From NCBI GenBank assembly GCA_017483185.1, contig JAFULM010000034.1, positions 1-33,103 on the forward strand: a stretch of DNA of 33,103 nucleotides. The letters are read 5' to 3'. How positions within the stretch are numbered: position 1 is the stretch's first letter; each line of letters starts with the position of its first letter. This stretch comes from Prevotella sp. (lineage in GTDB: Bacteria; Bacteroidota; Bacteroidia; Bacteroidales; Bacteroidaceae). Of this stretch, positions 1-33,103 are shown one piece after another. The notes under the pieces were generated by a model that was given only the letters and a program-made list of their open reading frames with translations, searched no databases and was not told where the DNA came from. The translations under genes and the position numbers were made by a program.

Positions 1-269
1 GGCCCCCTCTGACTCCCCCAAAGGGGGAGCTTGGGCTTCCCGTAAGGGCCCCGCGGGGTTGCAACGGGGCTGCTATTGCTCTCTGGCGGCGGCCCCGTTG
101 CAACATGACGGCGTGCTCGTTGCGATGCAATAAGGGCCCCGTTGCTCGACGAGACCCTCTTTCTGGTCCTTTTTCGGCAATCAAAAACTCGTCAACTTTT
201 TCAAAAATGAAGAGCCGCAGGGCCCTCCCGGCATCCCAAGCTCCTCCTTTCGATGGAGTCAGAGGGGCT
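1..269. repeat. Dispersed GC-rich repeat element with inverted ends (left-arm copy)
   Basis: Mirror image of 10691-10959. The ends are imperfect inverted repeats of about 35 bases sharing CCCCTCTGACTCC and GGAGCTTGGG. The interior contains GACGGCGTGCTCGTTGC and several CCCGTTGC boxes, also found at 25.8 kb and at the window end. No coding content is credible. The window starts exactly at its outer edge. Confidence 0.8.
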
Positions 270-299
270 TCTTGACATGCCGTAAGGGCCTTACGGGAC

Positions 300-344
300 A
301 AAAAAAGCCGCCGAAATCCCGATTTCCGGACATTTCGGCGGCTT
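300..344 (-). terminator. Rho-independent terminator of the polyferredoxin gene (left arm)
   Basis: Mirror of 10616-10660. Read on the minus strand, a 13-base stem AAGCCGCCGAAAT pairs across a 14-base loop and is followed by a run of T. It lies about 50 bases beyond the stop of the minus-strand gene ending at 394. Confidence 0.8.
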
Positions 345-393
345 CTGTTTTGTAAATATATATGACACGGCGAGGCAGGGCCGTGCCCTTCGC

Positions 394-1083
394 TTAATCC
401 TTTTTGCCGTTCAGCGACATTATCTTTATTGGACAGGCCGTGACACATTTGCCACATTTTATGCAGTCCGGATGGAGATAGCCCTCCTCCTGTCCGCGGC
501 TGTCGTAGGGTGTCAGTTGCATCGGACAGACGCGGGCACAGCTCTTGCACTTCATCTGGCATGTCGCGCTGACCTTTATCCGGCGGTAGTTTTCGGGCAG
601 CCGGCCGCTCCGCGGCGTCACCCACGATGACAGCGTGCCCATCGGACAGAACGAGCACCACGTGCGCGGGGCATAGATGAACGACAGCGTGACGCCGACG
701 ATGGTCGTCAGGAGAATGATGTTCCAGAAGACCTTGCCCATTGCCGACCAGTCGCCCCAGGCGAAATACATCTGTACGCCGAACATCGTGAAGATGAACA
801 TCACCATGAAAAGCCGGAAACCGAACGTCCGGACGAACGCCGGTATCGGTCTGTGGGGAGAGTAGCGTGAGAGCACGCGGTCGTAGAGGCTGCCACGCGG
901 ACACGCATTGCCGCACCACCAGCGGCCCCGGCGCACGGCAAACGCGACGGGAGCAATCATGCAGATGAGGGCCAGCCAGCCGATGATGGGGTAGAAGTAT
1001 CCCACGATGAGATAGACGATGAGAATCCAGTAGAGTGGCAGACCCTTGGTTTCGAGGTGACGGTGAAATTGTTTCTTTGCCAT
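394..1083 (-). CDS. NapH/NosR-type membrane 4Fe-4S polyferredoxin (left-arm copy)
   Basis: Identical in protein sequence to the gene at 9877-10566, where the full description is given. It is a 229-residue membrane protein with several hydrophobic segments, CxxxCP and CxxCP motifs beside them, and two C-terminal ferredoxin-like cysteine clusters, so it probably relays electrons at the inner membrane. In this arm it is the outermost gene, followed by its own terminator and the dispersed repeat that opens the window. Confidence 0.85.
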   Translation of the reverse strand: MAKKQFHRHLETKGLPLYWILIVYLIVGYFYPIIGWLALICMIAPVAFAVRRGRWWCGNACPRGSLYDRVLSRYSPHRPIPAFVRTFGFRLFMVMFIFTMFGVQMYFAWGDWSAMGKVFWNIILLTTIVGVTLSFIYAPRTWCSFCPMGTLSSWVTPRSGRLPENYRRIKVSATCQMKCKSCARVCPMQLTPYDSRGQEEGYLHPDCIKCGKCVTACPIKIMSLNGKKD

Positions 1084-1130
1084 ATTTCTTTTTATTGGTG
1101 TATATAAGTTTGGACCATTGCAGTTTGTCT

Positions 1131-1237
1131 ATACAACCAAAACGCAAAGGCCGCAAAGCCGCAAAGTCTTATCGGTATAGAACAGGCTATACGAACAGTG
1201 TCTTTGCGCCTTTGCGGCCTTTGCGTTTTGGTTGTAT
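1131..1237. repeat. Long inverted repeat built of GCAAAG units (left arm)
   Basis: Mirror of 9723-9829. Arms of about 36 bases pair: one starts ATACAACCAAAACGCAAAGG and the other ends CCTTTGCGTTTTGGTTGTAT, with a loop of roughly 35 bases. Inside the arms the heptamer-like unit CCGCAAAG recurs. A single-arm relative lies near 29117-29142. No protein-coding role is apparent. Confidence 0.8.
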
Positions 1238-1260
1238 GGACGGATATTGTTCACTTGCTT

Positions 1261-1323
1261 AAAAAAAGAAAGGGACATGGAGAAAGGAAAGATCCTGCGG
1301 TCTCCATACCTCCGTGTCCCTTT
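1261..1323 (-). terminator. Terminator after adk (left arm)
   Basis: Mirror of 9637-9699. On the minus strand AAAGGGACACGGAG pairs imperfectly with CTCCATGTCCCTTT and is followed by TCTTTTTTT, giving a standard intrinsic terminator about 40 bases after the adk stop. Confidence 0.75.
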
Positions 1324-1364
1324 TGTTGTATGTCTTACGGTCGCTTCTTGTGACCGTGACAGTC

Positions 1365-1937
1365 TCAGACGTTGTCGATCACGGCGGCGATGTCGCTGAA
1401 GATGCGGTCCAGCGCGCCGTGGCCGTCGATGTGGTGGTGGGTGCCGTCGGCCTTATACCAGTCGATGAGCGGCGCCGTCTGGTTGTGGTAGACGTCAAGG
1501 CGCTTTCTGATGGTCTCCTCGTTGTCGTCCGAGCGTCCGCTCTCCTTGCCGCGGTTGATGAGCCGCGTCATCAGCTCCTCCTCCGGAACGTCCAGCTCGA
1601 TCATGGCCGCAATCTTGTGGCCGCGCTTGGCGAGCATCGCCTTGAGGGCGTCAGCCTGGGGTATGGTGCGGGGGAAACCGTCGAAGATGACACCCTTGTG
1701 GTCCGGTCCGAAGCTGTCGTAGACGCCGGCGAGGATGTCTATCATCAGGTCGTCGGGGATGAGTTGGCCCTTGTCGATGAACGAAGCAGCCGTCTTTCCT
1801 AATTCCGTTCCTTTCTTGATCTCGCTGCGAAGCACGTCGCCGGTTGAGATGTGGCCGAGCCCGTAGTTTTTGATGATCAGTTCGCTTTGTGTCCCCTTTC
1901 CTGAACCGGGGGCACCGAATATCACAATATTCTTCAT
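1365..1937 (-). CDS. adk: Adenylate kinase (left-arm copy)
   Basis: Same 190-residue protein as 9023-9595, where motifs are listed. It interconverts ATP + AMP and 2 ADP in the cytoplasm. It follows hpt on the same strand (71-base gap) and ends before a terminator, so hpt-adk is probably one transcript. As this copy lies in the palindrome, it may not be a second gene in the organism. Confidence 0.9.
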   Translation of the reverse strand: MKNIVIFGAPGSGKGTQSELIIKNYGLGHISTGDVLRSEIKKGTELGKTAASFIDKGQLIPDDLMIDILAGVYDSFGPDHKGVIFDGFPRTIPQADALKAMLAKRGHKIAAMIELDVPEEELMTRLINRGKESGRSDDNEETIRKRLDVYHNQTAPLIDWYKADGTHHHIDGHGALDRIFSDIAAVIDNV

Positions 1938-2008
1938 TACTGTATGTCTGTTTTACCTTAAAAGTTCTATTGAAGAGTCTTTGTCTTTTGTCCGTCGAGC
2001 GCCGGCCG

Positions 2009-2545
2009 TCATTCTTTCAGCGTGTAGATGTCCCGCAGATTGCGGCCCTGCTGGTCGTAATCAAGTCCGTATCCGAGGATGAAGTCGTTGGGAATCTTGA
2101 ACGCGACATACTTGATGTCGAGCTGGGTCTTCAGCCGTTCCGGTTTGAGCAGCAACGTACAGATGCTCACCGACGCCGGATTTCTCGTGCCGAGGCTCTC
2201 GATCATGCGTTTCATGGTCAGTCCGCTTTCGACGATGTCCTCTACGATGATGACGTCGCGGTCGGTCAGGTCCTCGTTGATACCGAACACTTCTTTGATC
2301 TTTCCCGTCGATGTCGTTCCCTGATAGGACGCCAACTTGACGAAGGAAATCTCGCAGGGGATGGTCAACTCGCGCATGAGGTCGGCTGCAAAGACGAACG
2401 AGCCGTTGAGAACGGCAAGCAACAGCGGGTTGCGTCCCGCCATGTCGCGGTTTATCTCCTCCGCAACAGCTTTCACCCTCTGCTTGATCTCGGTCTCGGA
2501 AATGGATGTTTCAAACACTTTGTCCTTGATTTTGACTATGCTCAT
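2009..2545 (-). CDS. hpt: Hypoxanthine phosphoribosyltransferase (left-arm copy)
   Basis: Same 178-residue protein as 8415-8951. It is a purine-salvage enzyme that joins hypoxanthine or guanine to PRPP; the PRPP motif VIIVEDIVESGLT is intact. It is transcribed away from nnr from a shared 90-base intergenic region, and adk follows on the same strand. Confidence 0.9.
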   Translation of the reverse strand: MSIVKIKDKVFETSISETEIKQRVKAVAEEINRDMAGRNPLLLAVLNGSFVFAADLMRELTIPCEISFVKLASYQGTTSTGKIKEVFGINEDLTDRDVIIVEDIVESGLTMKRMIESLGTRNPASVSICTLLLKPERLKTQLDIKYVAFKIPNDFILGYGLDYDQQGRNLRDIYTLKE

Positions 2546-2570
2546 GGTACTAAAAACTTAATATTTGCGG

Positions 2571-2578
2571 CAAAATTA
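2571..2578 (-). promoter_or_regulatory. -7 element of the hpt promoter (left arm)
   Basis: On the minus strand this reads TAATTTTG, matching the Bacteroidetes -7 consensus TAnnTTTG, about 26 bases before the hpt start codon. I see no TTTG at the usual 19-21 base spacing upstream, so the -33 element is weak. Confidence 0.55.
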
Positions 2579-2614
2579 GTAAAAATCCGTCAAAGAATAG
2601 TCATTGAATAGTAT

Positions 2615-2630
2615 TAATTTTGTATTTTTG
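2615..2630 (+). promoter_or_regulatory. Tandem -7 elements directly before nnr (left arm)
   Basis: TAATTTTG (2615-2622) and TATTTTTG (2623-2630) both match TAnnTTTG. The second ends four bases before the nnr ATG at 2635. Use of either would give a transcript with a very short leader or none at all. Confidence 0.5.
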
Positions 2631-2634
2631 CCGT

Positions 2635-4149
2635 ATGAAGATTTTCACGAGCGCTCAGATACGTGAGCTTGACAAATATACCATAGAGCACGAACCGATC
2701 AAATCGGTCGAATTGATGGAGCGTGCGGCCAAGGCTATCACACGTGCCATCACGGACCGTTGGCACAATGATACGCCGATGGTGGTCTTTGCCGGTCCGG
2801 GCAATAACGGCGGCGACGCGCTTGCCGTGGCACGCCTGTTGGCCGAAGAGGGATATGCCGTGACGGCCTATCTCTTCAACATCTCCGGTCATCTTTCGGA
2901 TGACTGTGCGGCCAACAAGGCACGTCTCAAGGAGTGTCGCAGCCTGAAACAGCTGACCGAGGTGACGCAGGAGTTTGACCCGCCCCAGCTCACGGCCGAG
3001 ACTCTGGTTGTCGACGGACTCTTCGGTTCGGGGCTGAACAAGCCTCTTGCGGGCGGTTTCGCCTCGCTTGTCAAGTACATCAACGCCTCGCCCTGCCGCG
3101 TGGTGAGTATCGACATGCCCTCCGGACTGATGACGGAGGACAACACCTACAACATAAGGGCCAACATCATACGTGCCGATCTGACACTCACGCTTCAGCA
3201 CAAGAAACTCTCTTTCCTTTTCGCCGAAAACCAGTTGTTTGTCGGTGAACTCCGCGTCTTGGACATACGACTGAGCAAAGAGGGCACGGACAGCATCGAC
3301 GCACAATATCACATAGTGGAGGAGAGCGAGGTCCGCAATATGCTCCGTCCACGGCCGGAGTTCGCACACAAGGGCCAGATGGGCAGCGCGCTGCTCGTGG
3401 CCGGCAGCTACGGCATGGCGGGAGCCGCCGTGCTGGCAGCACGGGCTTGTCTGCGGGCCGGTGCGGGCAAGGTGACGCTCCATTCGCCGCGTTGCAACAA
3501 CATCATAACACAAATCTCCGTGCCCGAAGCCATCTTCCAAGCGGATGTCGACGAGGCCGTCTTTGCCGAGCCGGTGGATACGGAAGACTATGACGCACTG
3601 GGCATCGGACCGGGCCTCGGCATGACCGAGACAACGGCGATAGCCCTCATCGCGCAGCTTCGCAGGGCTCAGTGTCCCGTCGTGGCGGACGCCGACGCAA
3701 TAAATATCCTGGGCAACCATCGGGCGTGGATACAGCAGTTGCCCAAGGAAATCATCCTCACGCCCCATCCGAAGGAATACGACCGTCTCGACGGACATTC
3801 CGCCGACAGTTACGAACGGCTCTCGAAGGCACGCCATCTGGCCGAACAACTGCATGCGTACATCATCATCAAGGGACGTTACACGGCTTTGTGTCAACCC
3901 GACGGCCACGTGACGTTCAATCCGACAGGCAATCCCGGCATGGCCACGGCCGGCAGCGGAGATGTCCTGACGGGCATCATCACCGCCCTGTTGGCACGCG
4001 GATACGCCCGACGGGACGCTTGTGTGCTCGGTGTCTATATCCACGGACTCGCCGGCGACATAGCTGCCGGGCAGTTAGGACAGGAGAGTGTCACGGCGGG
4101 GGATATCGTGGCATGTCTTCCCAAGGCTTTCGCGAGACTGAGCGAGTGA
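2635..4149 (+). CDS. nnr: Bifunctional NAD(P)H-hydrate epimerase / ADP-dependent dehydratase (left-arm copy)
   Basis: Same protein as 6811-8325, where domains are given. It repairs damaged NADHX and NADPHX: the N-terminal half epimerises, the C-terminal half dehydrates at the cost of ADP. I chose ATG 2635 (504 aa) rather than the in-frame TTG at 2620, because the family starts with the MKIF-type segment and the TTG overlaps the -7 promoter elements. Three 22-bp tandem repeats start one base after the stop. Confidence 0.9.
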   Translation: MKIFTSAQIRELDKYTIEHEPIKSVELMERAAKAITRAITDRWHNDTPMVVFAGPGNNGGDALAVARLLAEEGYAVTAYLFNISGHLSDDCAANKARLKECRSLKQLTEVTQEFDPPQLTAETLVVDGLFGSGLNKPLAGGFASLVKYINASPCRVVSIDMPSGLMTEDNTYNIRANIIRADLTLTLQHKKLSFLFAENQLFVGELRVLDIRLSKEGTDSIDAQYHIVEESEVRNMLRPRPEFAHKGQMGSALLVAGSYGMAGAAVLAARACLRAGAGKVTLHSPRCNNIITQISVPEAIFQADVDEAVFAEPVDTEDYDALGIGPGLGMTETTAIALIAQLRRAQCPVVADADAINILGNHRAWIQQLPKEIILTPHPKEYDRLDGHSADSYERLSKARHLAEQLHAYIIIKGRYTALCQPDGHVTFNPTGNPGMATAGSGDVLTGIITALLARGYARRDACVLGVYIHGLAGDIAAGQLGQESVTAGDIVACLPKAFARLSE

Positions 4150-4150
4150 G

Positions 4151-4238
4151 CTCCCGGATGCATGAAGACTGTCTCCCGGGTGCATGAAGACTGTCTCCCG
4201 GGTGCATGATGACAGTCTCTCGGATGCAAGAGCGCATC
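4151..4238. repeat. 22-bp tandem repeat between nnr and the DUF4831 gene (left arm)
   Basis: Three consecutive 22-base units start at 4151, 4173 and 4195, sharing CTCCCGGxTGCATGA and ending in a CTGT/CAGT-like tail. A degenerate fourth starts at 4217. The first two differ by one base. No spacers separate the units, so this is not a CRISPR array. Confidence 0.9.
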
Positions 4239-4326
4239 CCGAACAATTCGTGAAAGCACGACGGAACTATATATATAAGGTAACGGCAGACAGGTAACAG
4301 AATAACAATATCTACATAAAGTCAAT

Positions 4327-5406
4327 ATGAAAACAATCCTTTTAGCGGGGATGTGCATGCTTGCCAGCATGGCGTCGGCCCAAACTCAGATAAGCAAGTA
4401 TCAGCCGGGAGTGACTCCCGAGGGTGCTGTCTACTTCCTTCCAAAGACGGCTTTGCGTGTTGTGGTGCAGGTGGAGAAGACCACCTATACGCCGGGCGAC
4501 TTTGCCAAATATGCCGAGAGGTATCTGCGGCTGATGGATGTGGCGCAGGAAGCGTCCGTGAGCTATCGTGTCAACAGCGTCACAATGACTCCGTTTGGCG
4601 TGGCGGACACTACAAAATGCTTCTCGGTGAGGTTTAATGCCAAAAACGCGACGGCCAACGTGCAACTTGCCGAGGACGGTGCGCTCATGGCAATCAACGC
4701 CACTGCCACAGCACCGGCGGAGCCGAAGGCGTTTGTGTCTGCGCCAAAACCGCGTCAGGTCAATCCGCGTCAGTTCATGAACGAGGAGATCTTGGCTGCC
4801 GGCAGTACGGCGAAGATGGCCGAGTTGACCGCTCTTGAGATATACGAGATACGCGACAGCAAGAATCAGCTTGTCCGCGGGCAGGCCGACTTTATGCCTA
4901 AGGACGGCGAACAGCTGCGCATCATGTTGGATCAGCTGTCCGCCCAGGACCAGGCGCTGACCAGTCTCTTTGCCGGAAAGACCGTTCGGGACACCACCGA
5001 GCATGTCTTTGTGTACTATCCGGACAGTGAGGTGAACCGTCAGGTGTTGTTCCGTCTGTCCGACAAACTCGGTGTCGTTGACGCAGACGACCTGTCCGGC
5101 GCACCATATTATATCAGCGTGACAGACTTGCACAGTGTCCCGGCGACAGTCCAGACCGGCGATGACAAGAAAAAGAAAAAGGTGCTGTCCGTCGAAGACG
5201 GCATCTATGTCAACGTCCCGGGCAAGATTCGTGTGGACATCACGCGCGGCAATGCTCCCGTGGGCAGCTATGAGGTGACGGCGGGACAGTTCGGACATAC
5301 CGAACTGCTCAGTGGCGAACTCTTCAATAAGCGCTTCACAACCCATCTGACGCTCAATCCTGTCACCGGAGGGGTGGCCCGATTGGAGGCGGAACAACCG
5401 AAATAA
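4327..5406 (+). CDS. DUF4831 family exported protein (left-arm copy)
   Basis: Same 359-residue protein as 5554-6633. It has a cleavable N-terminal signal peptide (probable cut after A18, ASA/QT) and no lipobox at the expected place, so it is probably periplasmic or surface-exposed. The function of the family is not known to me. It ends 31 bases before the central hairpin, so in this window the two copies converge tail to tail on it. Confidence 0.8.
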   Translation: MKTILLAGMCMLASMASAQTQISKYQPGVTPEGAVYFLPKTALRVVVQVEKTTYTPGDFAKYAERYLRLMDVAQEASVSYRVNSVTMTPFGVADTTKCFSVRFNAKNATANVQLAEDGALMAINATATAPAEPKAFVSAPKPRQVNPRQFMNEEILAAGSTAKMAELTALEIYEIRDSKNQLVRGQADFMPKDGEQLRIMLDQLSAQDQALTSLFAGKTVRDTTEHVFVYYPDSEVNRQVLFRLSDKLGVVDADDLSGAPYYISVTDLHSVPATVQTGDDKKKKKVLSVEDGIYVNVPGKIRVDITRGNAPVGSYEVTAGQFGHTELLSGELFNKRFTTHLTLNPVTGGVARLEAEQPK

Positions 5407-5436
5407 GCGAAGAGGCTATCGCTATCTGACTCCTAA

Positions 5437-5522
5437 AATCACAATCTCTATAAAAAGGCAAAGGAGTCCTGCAACCCGGCCGGGTTGCAGGACTCCTTTG
5501 CCTTTTTATAGAGATTGTGATT
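5437..5522. terminator. Central 86-bp perfect hairpin, probable bidirectional terminator
   Basis: This is a perfect self-complementary sequence of 43-base arms, centred on CCCGGCCGGG at 5475-5484 with no loop. The stem is GC-rich inside and ends in TTTTTAT on either strand, as expected of a rho-independent terminator. It lies 31 bases after the stop of the DUF4831 gene at 5406 and equally serves the mirrored gene. Natural terminators seldom have arms this long and perfect, so part of it may come from the event that created the palindrome. Confidence 0.8.
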
Positions 5523-5553
5523 ATTAGGAGTCAGATAGCGATAGCCTCTTCGC

Positions 5554-6633
5554 TTATTTCGGTTGTTCCGCCTCCAATCGGGCCACCCCTCCGGTGACAG
5601 GATTGAGCGTCAGATGGGTTGTGAAGCGCTTATTGAAGAGTTCGCCACTGAGCAGTTCGGTATGTCCGAACTGTCCCGCCGTCACCTCATAGCTGCCCAC
5701 GGGAGCATTGCCGCGCGTGATGTCCACACGAATCTTGCCCGGGACGTTGACATAGATGCCGTCTTCGACGGACAGCACCTTTTTCTTTTTCTTGTCATCG
5801 CCGGTCTGGACTGTCGCCGGGACACTGTGCAAGTCTGTCACGCTGATATAATATGGTGCGCCGGACAGGTCGTCTGCGTCAACGACACCGAGTTTGTCGG
5901 ACAGACGGAACAACACCTGACGGTTCACCTCACTGTCCGGATAGTACACAAAGACATGCTCGGTGGTGTCCCGAACGGTCTTTCCGGCAAAGAGACTGGT
6001 CAGCGCCTGGTCCTGGGCGGACAGCTGATCCAACATGATGCGCAGCTGTTCGCCGTCCTTAGGCATAAAGTCGGCCTGCCCGCGGACAAGCTGATTCTTG
6101 CTGTCGCGTATCTCGTATATCTCAAGAGCGGTCAACTCGGCCATCTTCGCCGTACTGCCGGCAGCCAAGATCTCCTCGTTCATGAACTGACGCGGATTGA
6201 CCTGACGCGGTTTTGGCGCAGACACAAACGCCTTCGGCTCCGCCGGTGCTGTGGCAGTGGCGTTGATTGCCATGAGCGCACCGTCCTCGGCAAGTTGCAC
6301 GTTGGCCGTCGCGTTTTTGGCATTAAACCTCACCGAGAAGCATTTTGTAGTGTCCGCCACGCCAAACGGAGTCATTGTGACGCTGTTGACACGATAGCTC
6401 ACGGACGCTTCCTGCGCCACATCCATCAGCCGCAGATACCTCTCGGCATATTTGGCAAAGTCGCCCGGCGTATAGGTGGTCTTCTCCACCTGCACCACAA
6501 CACGCAAAGCCGTCTTTGGAAGGAAGTAGACAGCACCCTCGGGAGTCACTCCCGGCTGATACTTGCTTATCTGAGTTTGGGCCGACGCCATGCTGGCAAG
6601 CATGCACATCCCCGCTAAAAGGATTGTTTTCAT
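5554..6633 (-). CDS. DUF4831 family exported protein
   Basis: A 359-residue protein that I recognise as a DUF4831 member, a family of uncharacterised Bacteroidetes proteins. Residues 1-18 form a typical signal peptide (basic KT, hydrophobic core, ASA cleavage site before Q19), which implies export to the periplasm. Cys10 lies inside the signal core after a Met, which does not fit a lipoprotein signal. The mature part is soluble, rich in Val, Thr and Ala, with a basic DDKKKKK stretch at about residue 280 and no catalytic motif I can name. It is transcribed in the same direction as nnr, 177 bases after it, but the gap holds tandem repeats and probably its own promoter. Function unknown. Confidence 0.8.
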   Translation of the reverse strand: MKTILLAGMCMLASMASAQTQISKYQPGVTPEGAVYFLPKTALRVVVQVEKTTYTPGDFAKYAERYLRLMDVAQEASVSYRVNSVTMTPFGVADTTKCFSVRFNAKNATANVQLAEDGALMAINATATAPAEPKAFVSAPKPRQVNPRQFMNEEILAAGSTAKMAELTALEIYEIRDSKNQLVRGQADFMPKDGEQLRIMLDQLSAQDQALTSLFAGKTVRDTTEHVFVYYPDSEVNRQVLFRLSDKLGVVDADDLSGAPYYISVTDLHSVPATVQTGDDKKKKKVLSVEDGIYVNVPGKIRVDITRGNAPVGSYEVTAGQFGHTELLSGELFNKRFTTHLTLNPVTGGVARLEAEQPK

Positions 6634-6721
6634 ATTGACTTTATGTAGATATTGTTATTCTGTTACCTGTCTGCCGTTACCTTATATATATAGTTCCGTC
6701 GTGCTTTCACGAATTGTTCGG

Positions 6722-6809
6722 GATGCGCTCTTGCATCCGAGAGACTGTCATCATGCACCCGGGAGACAGTCTTCATGCACCCGGGAGACAGTCTTCATGC
6801 ATCCGGGAG
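6722..6809. repeat. 22-bp tandem repeat (right arm)
   Basis: Mirror of 4151-4238: three 22-base units plus a degenerate fourth, in the 177-base gap between nnr and the DUF4831 gene. Each unit contains CCCGGx and xTGCAT, both locally palindromic. A role as transcript-end structure or protein-binding array is possible but not shown. Confidence 0.9.
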
Positions 6810-6810
6810 C

Positions 6811-8325
6811 TCACTCGCTCAGTCTCGCGAAAGCCTTGGGAAGACATGCCACGATATCCCCCGCCGTGACACTCTCCTGTCCTAACTGCCCGGCAGCTAT
6901 GTCGCCGGCGAGTCCGTGGATATAGACACCGAGCACACAAGCGTCCCGTCGGGCGTATCCGCGTGCCAACAGGGCGGTGATGATGCCCGTCAGGACATCT
7001 CCGCTGCCGGCCGTGGCCATGCCGGGATTGCCTGTCGGATTGAACGTCACGTGGCCGTCGGGTTGACACAAAGCCGTGTAACGTCCCTTGATGATGATGT
7101 ACGCATGCAGTTGTTCGGCCAGATGGCGTGCCTTCGAGAGCCGTTCGTAACTGTCGGCGGAATGTCCGTCGAGACGGTCGTATTCCTTCGGATGGGGCGT
7201 GAGGATGATTTCCTTGGGCAACTGCTGTATCCACGCCCGATGGTTGCCCAGGATATTTATTGCGTCGGCGTCCGCCACGACGGGACACTGAGCCCTGCGA
7301 AGCTGCGCGATGAGGGCTATCGCCGTTGTCTCGGTCATGCCGAGGCCCGGTCCGATGCCCAGTGCGTCATAGTCTTCCGTATCCACCGGCTCGGCAAAGA
7401 CGGCCTCGTCGACATCCGCTTGGAAGATGGCTTCGGGCACGGAGATTTGTGTTATGATGTTGTTGCAACGCGGCGAATGGAGCGTCACCTTGCCCGCACC
7501 GGCCCGCAGACAAGCCCGTGCTGCCAGCACGGCGGCTCCCGCCATGCCGTAGCTGCCGGCCACGAGCAGCGCGCTGCCCATCTGGCCCTTGTGTGCGAAC
7601 TCCGGCCGTGGACGGAGCATATTGCGGACCTCGCTCTCCTCCACTATGTGATATTGTGCGTCGATGCTGTCCGTGCCCTCTTTGCTCAGTCGTATGTCCA
7701 AGACGCGGAGTTCACCGACAAACAACTGGTTTTCGGCGAAAAGGAAAGAGAGTTTCTTGTGCTGAAGCGTGAGTGTCAGATCGGCACGTATGATGTTGGC
7801 CCTTATGTTGTAGGTGTTGTCCTCCGTCATCAGTCCGGAGGGCATGTCGATACTCACCACGCGGCAGGGCGAGGCGTTGATGTACTTGACAAGCGAGGCG
7901 AAACCGCCCGCAAGAGGCTTGTTCAGCCCCGAACCGAAGAGTCCGTCGACAACCAGAGTCTCGGCCGTGAGCTGGGGCGGGTCAAACTCCTGCGTCACCT
8001 CGGTCAGCTGTTTCAGGCTGCGACACTCCTTGAGACGTGCCTTGTTGGCCGCACAGTCATCCGAAAGATGACCGGAGATGTTGAAGAGATAGGCCGTCAC
8101 GGCATATCCCTCTTCGGCCAACAGGCGTGCCACGGCAAGCGCGTCGCCGCCGTTATTGCCCGGACCGGCAAAGACCACCATCGGCGTATCATTGTGCCAA
8201 CGGTCCGTGATGGCACGTGTGATAGCCTTGGCCGCACGCTCCATCAATTCGACCGATTTGATCGGTTCGTGCTCTATGGTATATTTGTCAAGCTCACGTA
8301 TCTGAGCGCTCGTGAAAATCTTCAT
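6811..8325 (-). CDS. nnr: Bifunctional NAD(P)H-hydrate epimerase / ADP-dependent NAD(P)H-hydrate dehydratase
   Basis: A 504-residue cytoplasmic metabolite-repair enzyme. The N-terminal YjeF_N (NnrE) domain, about residues 1-215, converts R- to S-NAD(P)HX and shows AGPGNNGGDALAVARLL near residue 55 and SIDMPSGL near 155. The C-terminal YjeF_C (NnrD) domain, about 230-500, removes the hydrate using ADP. Its family motifs are GIGPGLG, VVADADAIN, ILTPHPKE, IIIKG and the nucleotide-binding NPTGNPGMATAGSGDVLTG. Length is normal for the fused bacterial form. ATG at 8325 is preferred over TTG at 8340, which overlaps the promoter. The gene diverges from hpt. Confidence 0.93.
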   Translation of the reverse strand: MKIFTSAQIRELDKYTIEHEPIKSVELMERAAKAITRAITDRWHNDTPMVVFAGPGNNGGDALAVARLLAEEGYAVTAYLFNISGHLSDDCAANKARLKECRSLKQLTEVTQEFDPPQLTAETLVVDGLFGSGLNKPLAGGFASLVKYINASPCRVVSIDMPSGLMTEDNTYNIRANIIRADLTLTLQHKKLSFLFAENQLFVGELRVLDIRLSKEGTDSIDAQYHIVEESEVRNMLRPRPEFAHKGQMGSALLVAGSYGMAGAAVLAARACLRAGAGKVTLHSPRCNNIITQISVPEAIFQADVDEAVFAEPVDTEDYDALGIGPGLGMTETTAIALIAQLRRAQCPVVADADAINILGNHRAWIQQLPKEIILTPHPKEYDRLDGHSADSYERLSKARHLAEQLHAYIIIKGRYTALCQPDGHVTFNPTGNPGMATAGSGDVLTGIITALLARGYARRDACVLGVYIHGLAGDIAAGQLGQESVTAGDIVACLPKAFARLSE

Positions 8326-8337
8326 ACGGCAAAAATA

Positions 8338-8345
8338 CAAAATTA
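8338..8345 (-). promoter_or_regulatory. -7 element before nnr (right arm)
   Basis: TAATTTTG on the minus strand, with a second match TATTTTTG at 8330-8337 only four bases from the nnr ATG. Either would yield a nearly leaderless nnr message. Confidence 0.5.
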
Positions 8346-8381
8346 ATACTATTCAATGACTATTCTTTGACGGATTTTTAC

Positions 8382-8389
8382 TAATTTTG
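8382..8389 (+). promoter_or_regulatory. -7 element of the hpt promoter (right arm)
   Basis: TAATTTTG matches TAnnTTTG and lies 25 bases before the hpt ATG at 8415. The nearest TTTG upstream (8366-8369) is only 12 bases away, short of the usual spacing, so the -33 box is uncertain. Confidence 0.55.
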
Positions 8390-8414
8390 CCGCAAATATT
8401 AAGTTTTTAGTACC

Positions 8415-8951
8415 ATGAGCATAGTCAAAATCAAGGACAAAGTGTTTGAAACATCCATTTCCGAGACCGAGATCAAGCAGAGGGTGAAAGCTGTTGCGGA
8501 GGAGATAAACCGCGACATGGCGGGACGCAACCCGCTGTTGCTTGCCGTTCTCAACGGCTCGTTCGTCTTTGCAGCCGACCTCATGCGCGAGTTGACCATC
8601 CCCTGCGAGATTTCCTTCGTCAAGTTGGCGTCCTATCAGGGAACGACATCGACGGGAAAGATCAAAGAAGTGTTCGGTATCAACGAGGACCTGACCGACC
8701 GCGACGTCATCATCGTAGAGGACATCGTCGAAAGCGGACTGACCATGAAACGCATGATCGAGAGCCTCGGCACGAGAAATCCGGCGTCGGTGAGCATCTG
8801 TACGTTGCTGCTCAAACCGGAACGGCTGAAGACCCAGCTCGACATCAAGTATGTCGCGTTCAAGATTCCCAACGACTTCATCCTCGGATACGGACTTGAT
8901 TACGACCAGCAGGGCCGCAATCTGCGGGACATCTACACGCTGAAAGAATGA
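8415..8951 (+). CDS. hpt: Hypoxanthine phosphoribosyltransferase
   Basis: A 178-residue cytoplasmic purine-salvage enzyme making IMP (and usually GMP) from the free base and PRPP. The PRPP-binding motif VIIVEDIVESGLT is at residues 98-110, the pyrophosphate loop LNGSF at 46-50, the flexible loop SYQGTTSTG at 73-81 and the purine-binding segment KIPNDFILGYGLDYDQQGRN near 150-169. Length matches bacterial HPRT. It is 71 bases upstream of adk on the same strand with no terminator between, so the two nucleotide enzymes are probably co-transcribed. Confidence 0.95.
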   Translation: MSIVKIKDKVFETSISETEIKQRVKAVAEEINRDMAGRNPLLLAVLNGSFVFAADLMRELTIPCEISFVKLASYQGTTSTGKIKEVFGINEDLTDRDVIIVEDIVESGLTMKRMIESLGTRNPASVSICTLLLKPERLKTQLDIKYVAFKIPNDFILGYGLDYDQQGRNLRDIYTLKE

Positions 8952-9022
8952 CGGCCGGCGCTCGACGGACAAAAGACAAAGACTCTTCAATAGAACTTTT
9001 AAGGTAAAACAGACATACAGTA

Positions 9023-9595
9023 ATGAAGAATATTGTGATATTCGGTGCCCCCGGTTCAGGAAAGGGGACACAAAGCGAACTGATCATCAAAAACTACGGG
9101 CTCGGCCACATCTCAACCGGCGACGTGCTTCGCAGCGAGATCAAGAAAGGAACGGAATTAGGAAAGACGGCTGCTTCGTTCATCGACAAGGGCCAACTCA
9201 TCCCCGACGACCTGATGATAGACATCCTCGCCGGCGTCTACGACAGCTTCGGACCGGACCACAAGGGTGTCATCTTCGACGGTTTCCCCCGCACCATACC
9301 CCAGGCTGACGCCCTCAAGGCGATGCTCGCCAAGCGCGGCCACAAGATTGCGGCCATGATCGAGCTGGACGTTCCGGAGGAGGAGCTGATGACGCGGCTC
9401 ATCAACCGCGGCAAGGAGAGCGGACGCTCGGACGACAACGAGGAGACCATCAGAAAGCGCCTTGACGTCTACCACAACCAGACGGCGCCGCTCATCGACT
9501 GGTATAAGGCCGACGGCACCCACCACCACATCGACGGCCACGGCGCGCTGGACCGCATCTTCAGCGACATCGCCGCCGTGATCGACAACGTCTGA
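9023..9595 (+). CDS. adk: Adenylate kinase
   Basis: A 190-residue cytoplasmic enzyme balancing ATP, ADP and AMP. It shows the P-loop GAPGSGKGT (residues 8-16), the AMP-site STGD (31-34), DGFPRT (86-91) and the INRGKESGRSDDNEETIRKR region (127-146). The LID is the short form without zinc-binding cysteines, which explains the length below the 214 residues of E. coli Adk and is usual in Bacteroidetes. It lies downstream of hpt and ends before a clear terminator. In relatives obgE often follows here; in this window obgE is at 20748 on the other strand. Confidence 0.96.
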   Translation: MKNIVIFGAPGSGKGTQSELIIKNYGLGHISTGDVLRSEIKKGTELGKTAASFIDKGQLIPDDLMIDILAGVYDSFGPDHKGVIFDGFPRTIPQADALKAMLAKRGHKIAAMIELDVPEEELMTRLINRGKESGRSDDNEETIRKRLDVYHNQTAPLIDWYKADGTHHHIDGHGALDRIFSDIAAVIDNV

Positions 9596-9636
9596 GACTG
9601 TCACGGTCACAAGAAGCGACCGTAAGACATACAACA

Positions 9637-9699
9637 AAAGGGACACGGAGGTATGGAGACCGCAGGATCTTTCCTTTCTCCATGTCCCTTTCTTTTTTT
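9637..9699 (+). terminator. Rho-independent terminator after adk
   Basis: AAAGGGACACGGAG pairs with CTCCATGTCCCTTT (two mismatches) around a loop of about 27 bases, and TCTTTTTTT follows. This ends the hpt-adk transcript. Confidence 0.75.
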
Positions 9700-9722
9700 A
9701 AGCAAGTGAACAATATCCGTCC

Positions 9723-9829
9723 ATACAACCAAAACGCAAAGGCCGCAAAGGCGCAAAGACACTGTTCGTATAGCCTGTTCTATACCGATAAGACTTTGCG
9801 GCTTTGCGGCCTTTGCGTTTTGGTTGTAT
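9723..9829. repeat. Long inverted repeat built of GCAAAG units
   Basis: Two arms of about 36 bases, beginning ATACAACCAAAACGCAAAGG and ending in its complement, flank a loop of roughly 35 bases containing TATAGCCTGTTCTATA. It sits between adk and the polyferredoxin gene and could form a large cruciform or RNA hairpin. The GCAAAGgC unit also occurs at 29117-29142. Confidence 0.8.
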
Positions 9830-9876
9830 AGACAAACTGCAATGGTCCAAACTTATATACACCAATAAAAAGAAAT

Positions 9877-10566
9877 ATGGCAAAGAAACAATTTCACCGT
9901 CACCTCGAAACCAAGGGTCTGCCACTCTACTGGATTCTCATCGTCTATCTCATCGTGGGATACTTCTACCCCATCATCGGCTGGCTGGCCCTCATCTGCA
10001 TGATTGCTCCCGTCGCGTTTGCCGTGCGCCGGGGCCGCTGGTGGTGCGGCAATGCGTGTCCGCGTGGCAGCCTCTACGACCGCGTGCTCTCACGCTACTC
10101 TCCCCACAGACCGATACCGGCGTTCGTCCGGACGTTCGGTTTCCGGCTTTTCATGGTGATGTTCATCTTCACGATGTTCGGCGTACAGATGTATTTCGCC
10201 TGGGGCGACTGGTCGGCAATGGGCAAGGTCTTCTGGAACATCATTCTCCTGACGACCATCGTCGGCGTCACGCTGTCGTTCATCTATGCCCCGCGCACGT
10301 GGTGCTCGTTCTGTCCGATGGGCACGCTGTCATCGTGGGTGACGCCGCGGAGCGGCCGGCTGCCCGAAAACTACCGCCGGATAAAGGTCAGCGCGACATG
10401 CCAGATGAAGTGCAAGAGCTGTGCCCGCGTCTGTCCGATGCAACTGACACCCTACGACAGCCGCGGACAGGAGGAGGGCTATCTCCATCCGGACTGCATA
10501 AAATGTGGCAAATGTGTCACGGCCTGTCCAATAAAGATAATGTCGCTGAACGGCAAAAAGGATTAA
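9877..10566 (+). CDS. NapH/NosR-type membrane 4Fe-4S polyferredoxin
   Basis: A 229-residue inner-membrane protein. Hydrophobic segments lie at about residues 17-50, 88-108 and 117-137. Cysteine motifs follow them: C57xxxC61P, C143xxC146P, then two clusters in the soluble tail, C175xxxC179xxC182xxxC186P and C207xxCxxCxxxC217P. The second is a canonical 4Fe-4S ferredoxin motif; the first has an extra residue between its first two cysteines. This arrangement is that of the NapH/NosR/CcoG-like family, which passes electrons from quinol or ferredoxin to periplasmic or membrane reductases. No reductase partner is nearby, so the partner is unknown. It has its own terminator at 10616-10660. Confidence 0.85.
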   Translation: MAKKQFHRHLETKGLPLYWILIVYLIVGYFYPIIGWLALICMIAPVAFAVRRGRWWCGNACPRGSLYDRVLSRYSPHRPIPAFVRTFGFRLFMVMFIFTMFGVQMYFAWGDWSAMGKVFWNIILLTTIVGVTLSFIYAPRTWCSFCPMGTLSSWVTPRSGRLPENYRRIKVSATCQMKCKSCARVCPMQLTPYDSRGQEEGYLHPDCIKCGKCVTACPIKIMSLNGKKD

Positions 10567-10615
10567 GCGAAGGGCACGGCCCTGCCTCGCCGTGTCATAT
10601 ATATTTACAAAACAG

Positions 10616-10660
10616 AAGCCGCCGAAATGTCCGGAAATCGGGATTTCGGCGGCTTTTTTT
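10616..10660 (+). terminator. Rho-independent terminator of the polyferredoxin gene
   Basis: The perfect 13-base stem AAGCCGCCGAAAT / ATTTCGGCGGCTT is separated by a 14-base loop and followed by TTTTT, 50 bases after the stop codon. Confidence 0.85.
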
Positions 10661-10690
10661 GTCCCGTAAGGCCCTTACGGCATGTCAAGA

Positions 10691-10959
10691 AGCCCCTCTG
10701 ACTCCATCGAAAGGAGGAGCTTGGGATGCCGGGAGGGCCCTGCGGCTCTTCATTTTTGAAAAAGTTGACGAGTTTTTGATTGCCGAAAAAGGACCAGAAA
10801 GAGGGTCTCGTCGAGCAACGGGGCCCTTATTGCATCGCAACGAGCACGCCGTCATGTTGCAACGGGGCCGCCGCCAGAGAGCAATAGCAGCCCCGTTGCA
10901 ACCCCGCGGGGCCCTTACGGGAAGCCCAAGCTCCCCCTTTGGGGGAGTCAGAGGGGGCC
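10691..10959. repeat. MITE-like dispersed repeat with inverted ends
   Basis: About 269 bases bounded by imperfect inverted ends of about 35 bases (10691-10725 and 10925-10959), sharing CCCCTCTGACTCC and GGAGCTTGGG. The interior of about 190 bases is closely matched, in reverse orientation, by 32925-33103, including AGTTTTTGATT, the GAGCAACGGGGCC box and GAGCACGCCGTCATGTTGCA. It encodes no plausible protein. The outer end is exactly where the palindrome stops. The call 'MITE-like' rests on structure only; no target-site duplication was established. Confidence 0.7.
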
Positions 10960-32879: not shown

Positions 32880-33103
32880 GTCAGCTCTCCCTCCCCTTGG
32901 GGAGGGCCGGGGTGGGGCCCCGCGAGGCCCTTCCGGCCCTGCAACGGGGCTGCTATTGCATTGCAACGGCGGCCCCGTTGCAACATGACGGCGTGCTCGT
33001 TGCAACCCCGCGGGGGCCCCGTTGCTCGTCGAAACCCACTTTTTGGTCCAAAAACAACAATCAAAAACTCGCGAAGTTTTGCAAAATCAGAAAGCCGCGA
33101 GGC
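32880..33103. repeat. Composite GC-rich dispersed repeat at the window end
   Basis: It opens with CCCTCCCCTTGGGGAGGGCC and GGGGTGGGGCCCC, then repeats the interior of the 1-269 element in the same orientation (GCAACGGGGCTGCTATTGC, GACGGCGTGCTCGTTGCAAC, ATCAAAAACTCG). The window stops inside it. So both ends of the window fall in one repeat family, as expected of short-read contig breaks. Confidence 0.85.

Follow-up and report, generated by a model that had tools for sequence, protein, structure and literature searches.

The window analysed here, the whole stretch of 33,103 bp, is the entire contig C21 of a Prevotella sp. draft genome comprising 61 contigs and 2,472,748 bases, with a completeness of 74.72%. 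Its first eleven kilobases read as a palindrome in which five genes occur twice, and this raises the question of whether the genome really carries these genes in two copies or whether the second copy was made during assembly. The palindrome is almost certainly an assembly fold-back artefact formed at an ordinary bidirectional terminator hairpin, and not a real gene doubling.

An earlier note on this DNA had described an eleven-kilobase palindrome at 1–10959, and its existence is confirmed. Positions 1–5436 are the exact reverse complement of 5524–10959 (5436 of 5436 bases, no mismatches), an identity that cannot be explained by chance. The arms are separated by an 86-bp perfect palindrome (5437–5522) and, after it, one extra base, A, at 5523. 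This base is present on the right side only; the whole is palindromic bar one 1-nt indel at the hairpin edge. The pairing sum of 10960 given in the earlier note is valid for the arms, but the axis of the hairpin has a sum of 10959. Likewise, the 86-bp hairpin is there, but the claim that no spacer lies beyond it needs amending by the one base at 5523. The main elements of the palindrome are as follows:

1–5436, minus strand: left arm, the exact reverse complement of 5524–10959 and probably an artefactual inverted copy of it.
5436–5437, no strand: site of the one-base deletion, seen on comparing the left edge of the hairpin with its right edge; the only new sequence of the left arm.
5437–5522, no strand: 86-bp perfect palindrome, a hairpin resembling a bidirectional intrinsic terminator; the fold-back point.
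5524–10959, plus strand: right arm, probably the genuine single-copy locus, continuing into 10960–33103; the same order is found once in L060, a relative described below.

The five duplicated genes had been named correctly, as judged by Pfam and NCBIfam, and their mirror copies are identical. In the right arm they are:

5554–6633, minus strand: DUF4831 gene (PF16115, E 5.5e-123); mirror copy at 4327–5406, plus strand.
6811–8340, minus strand: nnr, NAD(P)H-hydrate dehydratase/epimerase (PF01256, PF03853; TIGR00196 and TIGR00197 above cut-off); mirror copy at 2620–4149, plus strand.
8415–8951, plus strand: hpt, hypoxanthine phosphoribosyltransferase (PF00156; TIGR01203 above cut-off); mirror copy at 2009–2545, minus strand.
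9023–9595, plus strand: adk, adenylate kinase (PF00406; NCBIfam NF001381); mirror copy at 1365–1937, minus strand.
9877–10566, plus strand: 4Fe-4S polyferredoxin-like gene (PF12801, PF12838; no NCBIfam model above cut-off); mirror copy at 394–1083, minus strand.

In the draft genome, DUF4831 is present only in the two arms of C21. Beyond the right arm, the contig continues with a DJ-1/PfpI-family gene, pdxJ, NAD kinase, an ABC transporter, a MutS-domain protein and others. A plus-strand frame at 6916–8346 was considered as nnr and rejected as a shadow of the real gene on the minus strand, which leaves the counts of DUF4831, adk and fba (the aldolase gene introduced below) unaffected; two further frames in the Pfam scan matched no family. 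Between adk and the 4Fe-4S gene there is another inverted repeat, imperfect and about 115 bp long (9719–9833, mirrored at 1127–1241); it is 81% identical to its own complement and has short matches on other contigs.

The 86-bp hairpin has an RNA folding energy of −74.4 kcal/mol against a mean of −18.4 for shuffled sequences (z −20.4), and a consensus scan finds it terminator-like on both strands. A G+C-rich stem is followed by T on both strands, with the fba stop at one edge and the DUF4831 stop at 5554. On these sequence features, the hairpin is predicted to be a bidirectional intrinsic terminator between convergent genes. No other gapless perfect palindrome of at least 60 bp was present in the window or in 915,135 bases of contig-end pieces, scanned for centres more than 60 nt from a piece's end. 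When the flank provided by another contig, C11, is included, the perfect palindrome extends to 92 bp (AAT + 86 bp + ATT). The length of this palindrome (86/92 bp) between the convergent fba and DUF4831 is unusual for a terminator.

Contig C11 was found in a search of the genome with positions 5380–5600: besides both arms, only its end matched (68096–68156 of 68,156). The shared segment is located in the window as follows:

5465–5525, minus strand: segment common to the terminal 61 nt of C11 (68096–68156), the last gene of which is fba.

These 61 nt comprise part of the hairpin and three bases on the DUF4831 side; the match to the left-arm side is 58 nt long. The last gene of C11, fba, encodes a class II fructose-bisphosphate aldolase (NF005481, above cut-off) and occurs in one copy in the draft genome. 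Its TAA stop runs into the hairpin, and C11 ends inside it. Since C11, with fba, terminates within the same hairpin, the natural locus appears to be fba > hairpin < DUF4831, two convergent genes with one terminator common to both. Another contig of the draft thus holds the apparent true flank and breaks off at this very junction.

The organisation of the locus in relatives agrees with this arrangement. A scan confirmed 135 relatives, and the best 80 of the 135 were retained as named loci. Among these 80, the closest is L060 (CAMVUM010000015.1, uncultured Prevotella sp.), with 84% identity in DUF4831 and 97% in fba. On one contig, and once each, L060 carries the genes for a MutS-like protein, ABC, nadK, pdxJ, DJ-1, the 4Fe-4S protein, adk, hpt, nnr, DUF4831 and fba. 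These are followed by a purH-like gene, mreB, mreC, mreD, pbp2, rodA and two more genes of C11. NCBIfam supports mreB, mreC, pbp2 and rodA; the match of the purH-like protein (197 aa) is confined to the N-terminal part of purH and stays below cut-off, and the gene between mreC and pbp2 is presumed to be mreD. In L061 the order is the same up to rodA, except that the 4Fe-4S protein has no match. In both relatives the right side of C21 and the end of C11 are collinear on one contig, single-copy genes running on into those of C11, and in both the gap between fba and DUF4831 holds a G+C-rich hairpin, followed by T, that is shorter than the one in C21.

All 80 named loci have a single DUF4831 in the stretch of DNA covered, and an exact inverted repeat longer than 150 bp was found in none of them. 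Convergent fba lies within 0.5 kb of DUF4831 in 16 of the 80, including the four closest of these best 80 of 135 (L060–L063). It is convergent at a distance of 1.6–9.1 kb in eight and in the opposite orientation in one; fba was not found in the downstream DNA covered in the remaining 55, seven of which have less than 1.5 kb of downstream DNA. In a separate set of 15 relative loci read at length, fba was convergent in five and not seen in ten; the two sets overlap, L048 (one of the five) being like L099 in length and match. The position of fba next to DUF4831 is not universal among more distant relatives. The earlier note had proposed, as a finding that would refute duplication, a reference strain with one copy and different sequence past the hairpin; this is provided only by relatives belonging to other species and not by the same strain. 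Its suggestion of an assembly or amplification fold-back at the terminator hairpin, for which it named a very recent real duplication as the alternative, is supported by the discovery of the C11/fba flank, by the single DUF4831 of the relatives and by the convergent fba of the closest ones.

The left arm adds almost nothing to the sequence of the genome. At k = 21, 29, 39, 59, 79, 99, 119 and 141, the k-mers of the window that are absent from the hairpin and everything rightwards of it, taken together with the end of C11, number k−1 and lie across the deletion only. Because only the deletion-spanning k-mers are new, the left arm carries no information of its own beyond one base. Among the 122 contig ends of the draft, 15 pairs have exactly 141 nt in common (13 branch-type, 2 join-type), and other pairs share 119, 128, 139, 140, 266 and other lengths. 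The exact 141-nt sharing suggests that short reads were assembled through de Bruijn graphs with k rising to 141 at most, the MEGAHIT default. Deriving k from the C11 overlap was rejected, as no single k fits both 61 nt on the DUF4831 side and 58 nt on the left arm. A fold-back occurs at one of the 122 contig ends, the left end of C21; none was flagged at the other 121, where arms longer than about 4 kb could escape. The contig-end pieces used were up to 8 kb long (12 kb for the 3′ end of C11 and both ends of C21), with some 3′ pieces down to 1 kb.

The outer edge of the left arm coincides with a repeat, the right-arm copy of which is located as follows:

10668–10959, no strand: dispersed repeat copy, its outer edge mirrored at contig base 1.

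This repeat is about 270 bp long, with inverted ends of about 34 nt; copies in the window are found at 1–292, 10668–10959 and 32940–33086, the last at the right end of C21. It occurs in at least 38 further places in the genome with 74–90% identity (40 of 240 candidates scored). Of the 122 contig ends, 18, the two of C21 included, have it in their final 300 nt, and a contig stopping at this repeat is therefore usual in this draft. A blastn comparison (E 1e-8) with the 80 named relative loci gave no match to the repeat, which looks like a lineage-specific expansion and may be MITE-like or REP-like. As had been noted earlier, the left arm ends in the repeat, whose outer edge falls on base 1, where the contig begins. 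Nothing precedes this base. The last 58 nt of another contig, C33 (L228, C33:27576–35576), are identical to window positions 1–58, and C33 was considered as the true left flank, but the overlap is wholly inside the dispersed repeat. Genes near the end of C33 are, judging by their translations, presumably phosphoglycerate-mutase-like and Sir2-like.

The following course of events would account for these observations. On the real chromosome, fba and DUF4831 would be convergent, with one long bidirectional terminator hairpin between them. A self-reverse-complementary sequence has the same neighbours at both ends in the assembly graph, and a path entering it from DUF4831 may leave back into DUF4831 rather than into fba. 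The assembler would then re-read the segment from DUF4831 to the repeat backwards and halt at the repeat edge, and fba would be left stranded at the end of C11. Fold-back chimeric reads formed at the hairpin during library preparation could be the source of both the link and the one-base deletion; alternatively, the deletion may be a minor strain variant. Several points do not sit easily with an artefact. A pure graph walk does not predict the one-base deletion, and a variant or a chimeric read is needed; a strictly bidirected de Bruijn graph should not repeat the same k-mers in one contig; and the match of C33 to positions 1–58 is possibly a join beyond the left arm.

The alternative is a real and very recent inverted duplication, in which replication or the repair of a break turned back on itself at the hairpin and doubled adk, hpt, nnr, DUF4831 and the 4Fe-4S gene. 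The identical arms are compatible with it, the natural 86-bp palindrome at the axis could offer a starting point for hairpin-primed template switching, the one-base deletion may be the scar of a junction and the end of C33 could be an outer flank. However, fba also joins the hairpin at the end of C11, and a duplication would require either a third arm at the hairpin or a break in the fba junction. The left arm also ends at the first base of the contig, in a repeat; the C33 match is wholly within that repeat, found at 18 of the 122 contig ends; and none of the 80 named relative loci has such an arrangement. This reading is very improbable and was rejected as the main one, given that this hairpin is also where C11 breaks off after fba and that the 80 named relative loci are single-copy. 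It is just as unlikely that in a minority of the sampled cells the 92-bp hairpin had primed a genuine inverted duplication by fold-back, with the deletion as its scar, present beside the ancestral fba–hairpin–DUF4831 order.

A fold-back artefact may also include molecules that were truly present in the library, formed by end-repair or PCR snap-back at the hairpin and followed by the assembler. This is a sub-case of the artefact and does not compete with it; its chances are somewhat short of even. The base missing at the edge of the hairpin resembles a molecular scar, and the consulted part of PMC10908179 reports chimeric reads that form at inverted repeats and palindromes in short-read libraries, together with artefactual indels. 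From sequence alone, however, such molecules, a graph error and a minor strain variant would look alike, and chimeric reads span one read length, so that building the 5.4-kb arm would still fall to the assembler.

Where a terminator hairpin is long and perfect, short-read assembly can turn a contig back along its own sequence, which produces false gene duplications and detaches the true neighbour. Claims on the gene dosage of adk, hpt and nnr in this genome should not rest on C21. A simple screen for such cases would look for identical arms with one arm at the contig end, as at base 1 of C21, and for another contig ending in the same hairpin.

In the literature consulted in part on fold-back or palindromic contigs (MEGAHIT, metagenome assemblies) and on library artefacts, no description of this exact case was found, and the part of PMC8116208 concerned contains nothing on inverted fold-backs. 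For metagenome-assembled genomes, the relevant part of PMC7111523 reports unsupported stretches, chimeras of two organisms, artificial concatenation of repeats and segments flipped between inverted repeats. C21 resembles these local assembly errors in that the assembler produced a sequence departing from the true locus, which then stayed in a draft genome; unlike any of the error types described there, it folds back at a terminator hairpin. The yeast copy-number variants treated in the available section of PMC10766183 rest on independent split reads, junctions seen in a single read being regarded as PCR artefacts. As in inverted amplification by template switching or fold-back repair, the inverted copies of C21 are joined at a short interrupted inverted repeat; unlike the yeast variants, C21 has an alternative true junction, found on C11. 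The part of PMC10908179 cited above deals with chimeric reads that library preparation creates at palindromes and inverted repeats; they concern human capture sequencing and the scale of single reads. C21 differs in having kilobase arms in an assembly, and is like these chimeras in that a natural palindrome is the point where the sequence passes into its own complement, with an indel that is probably artefactual.
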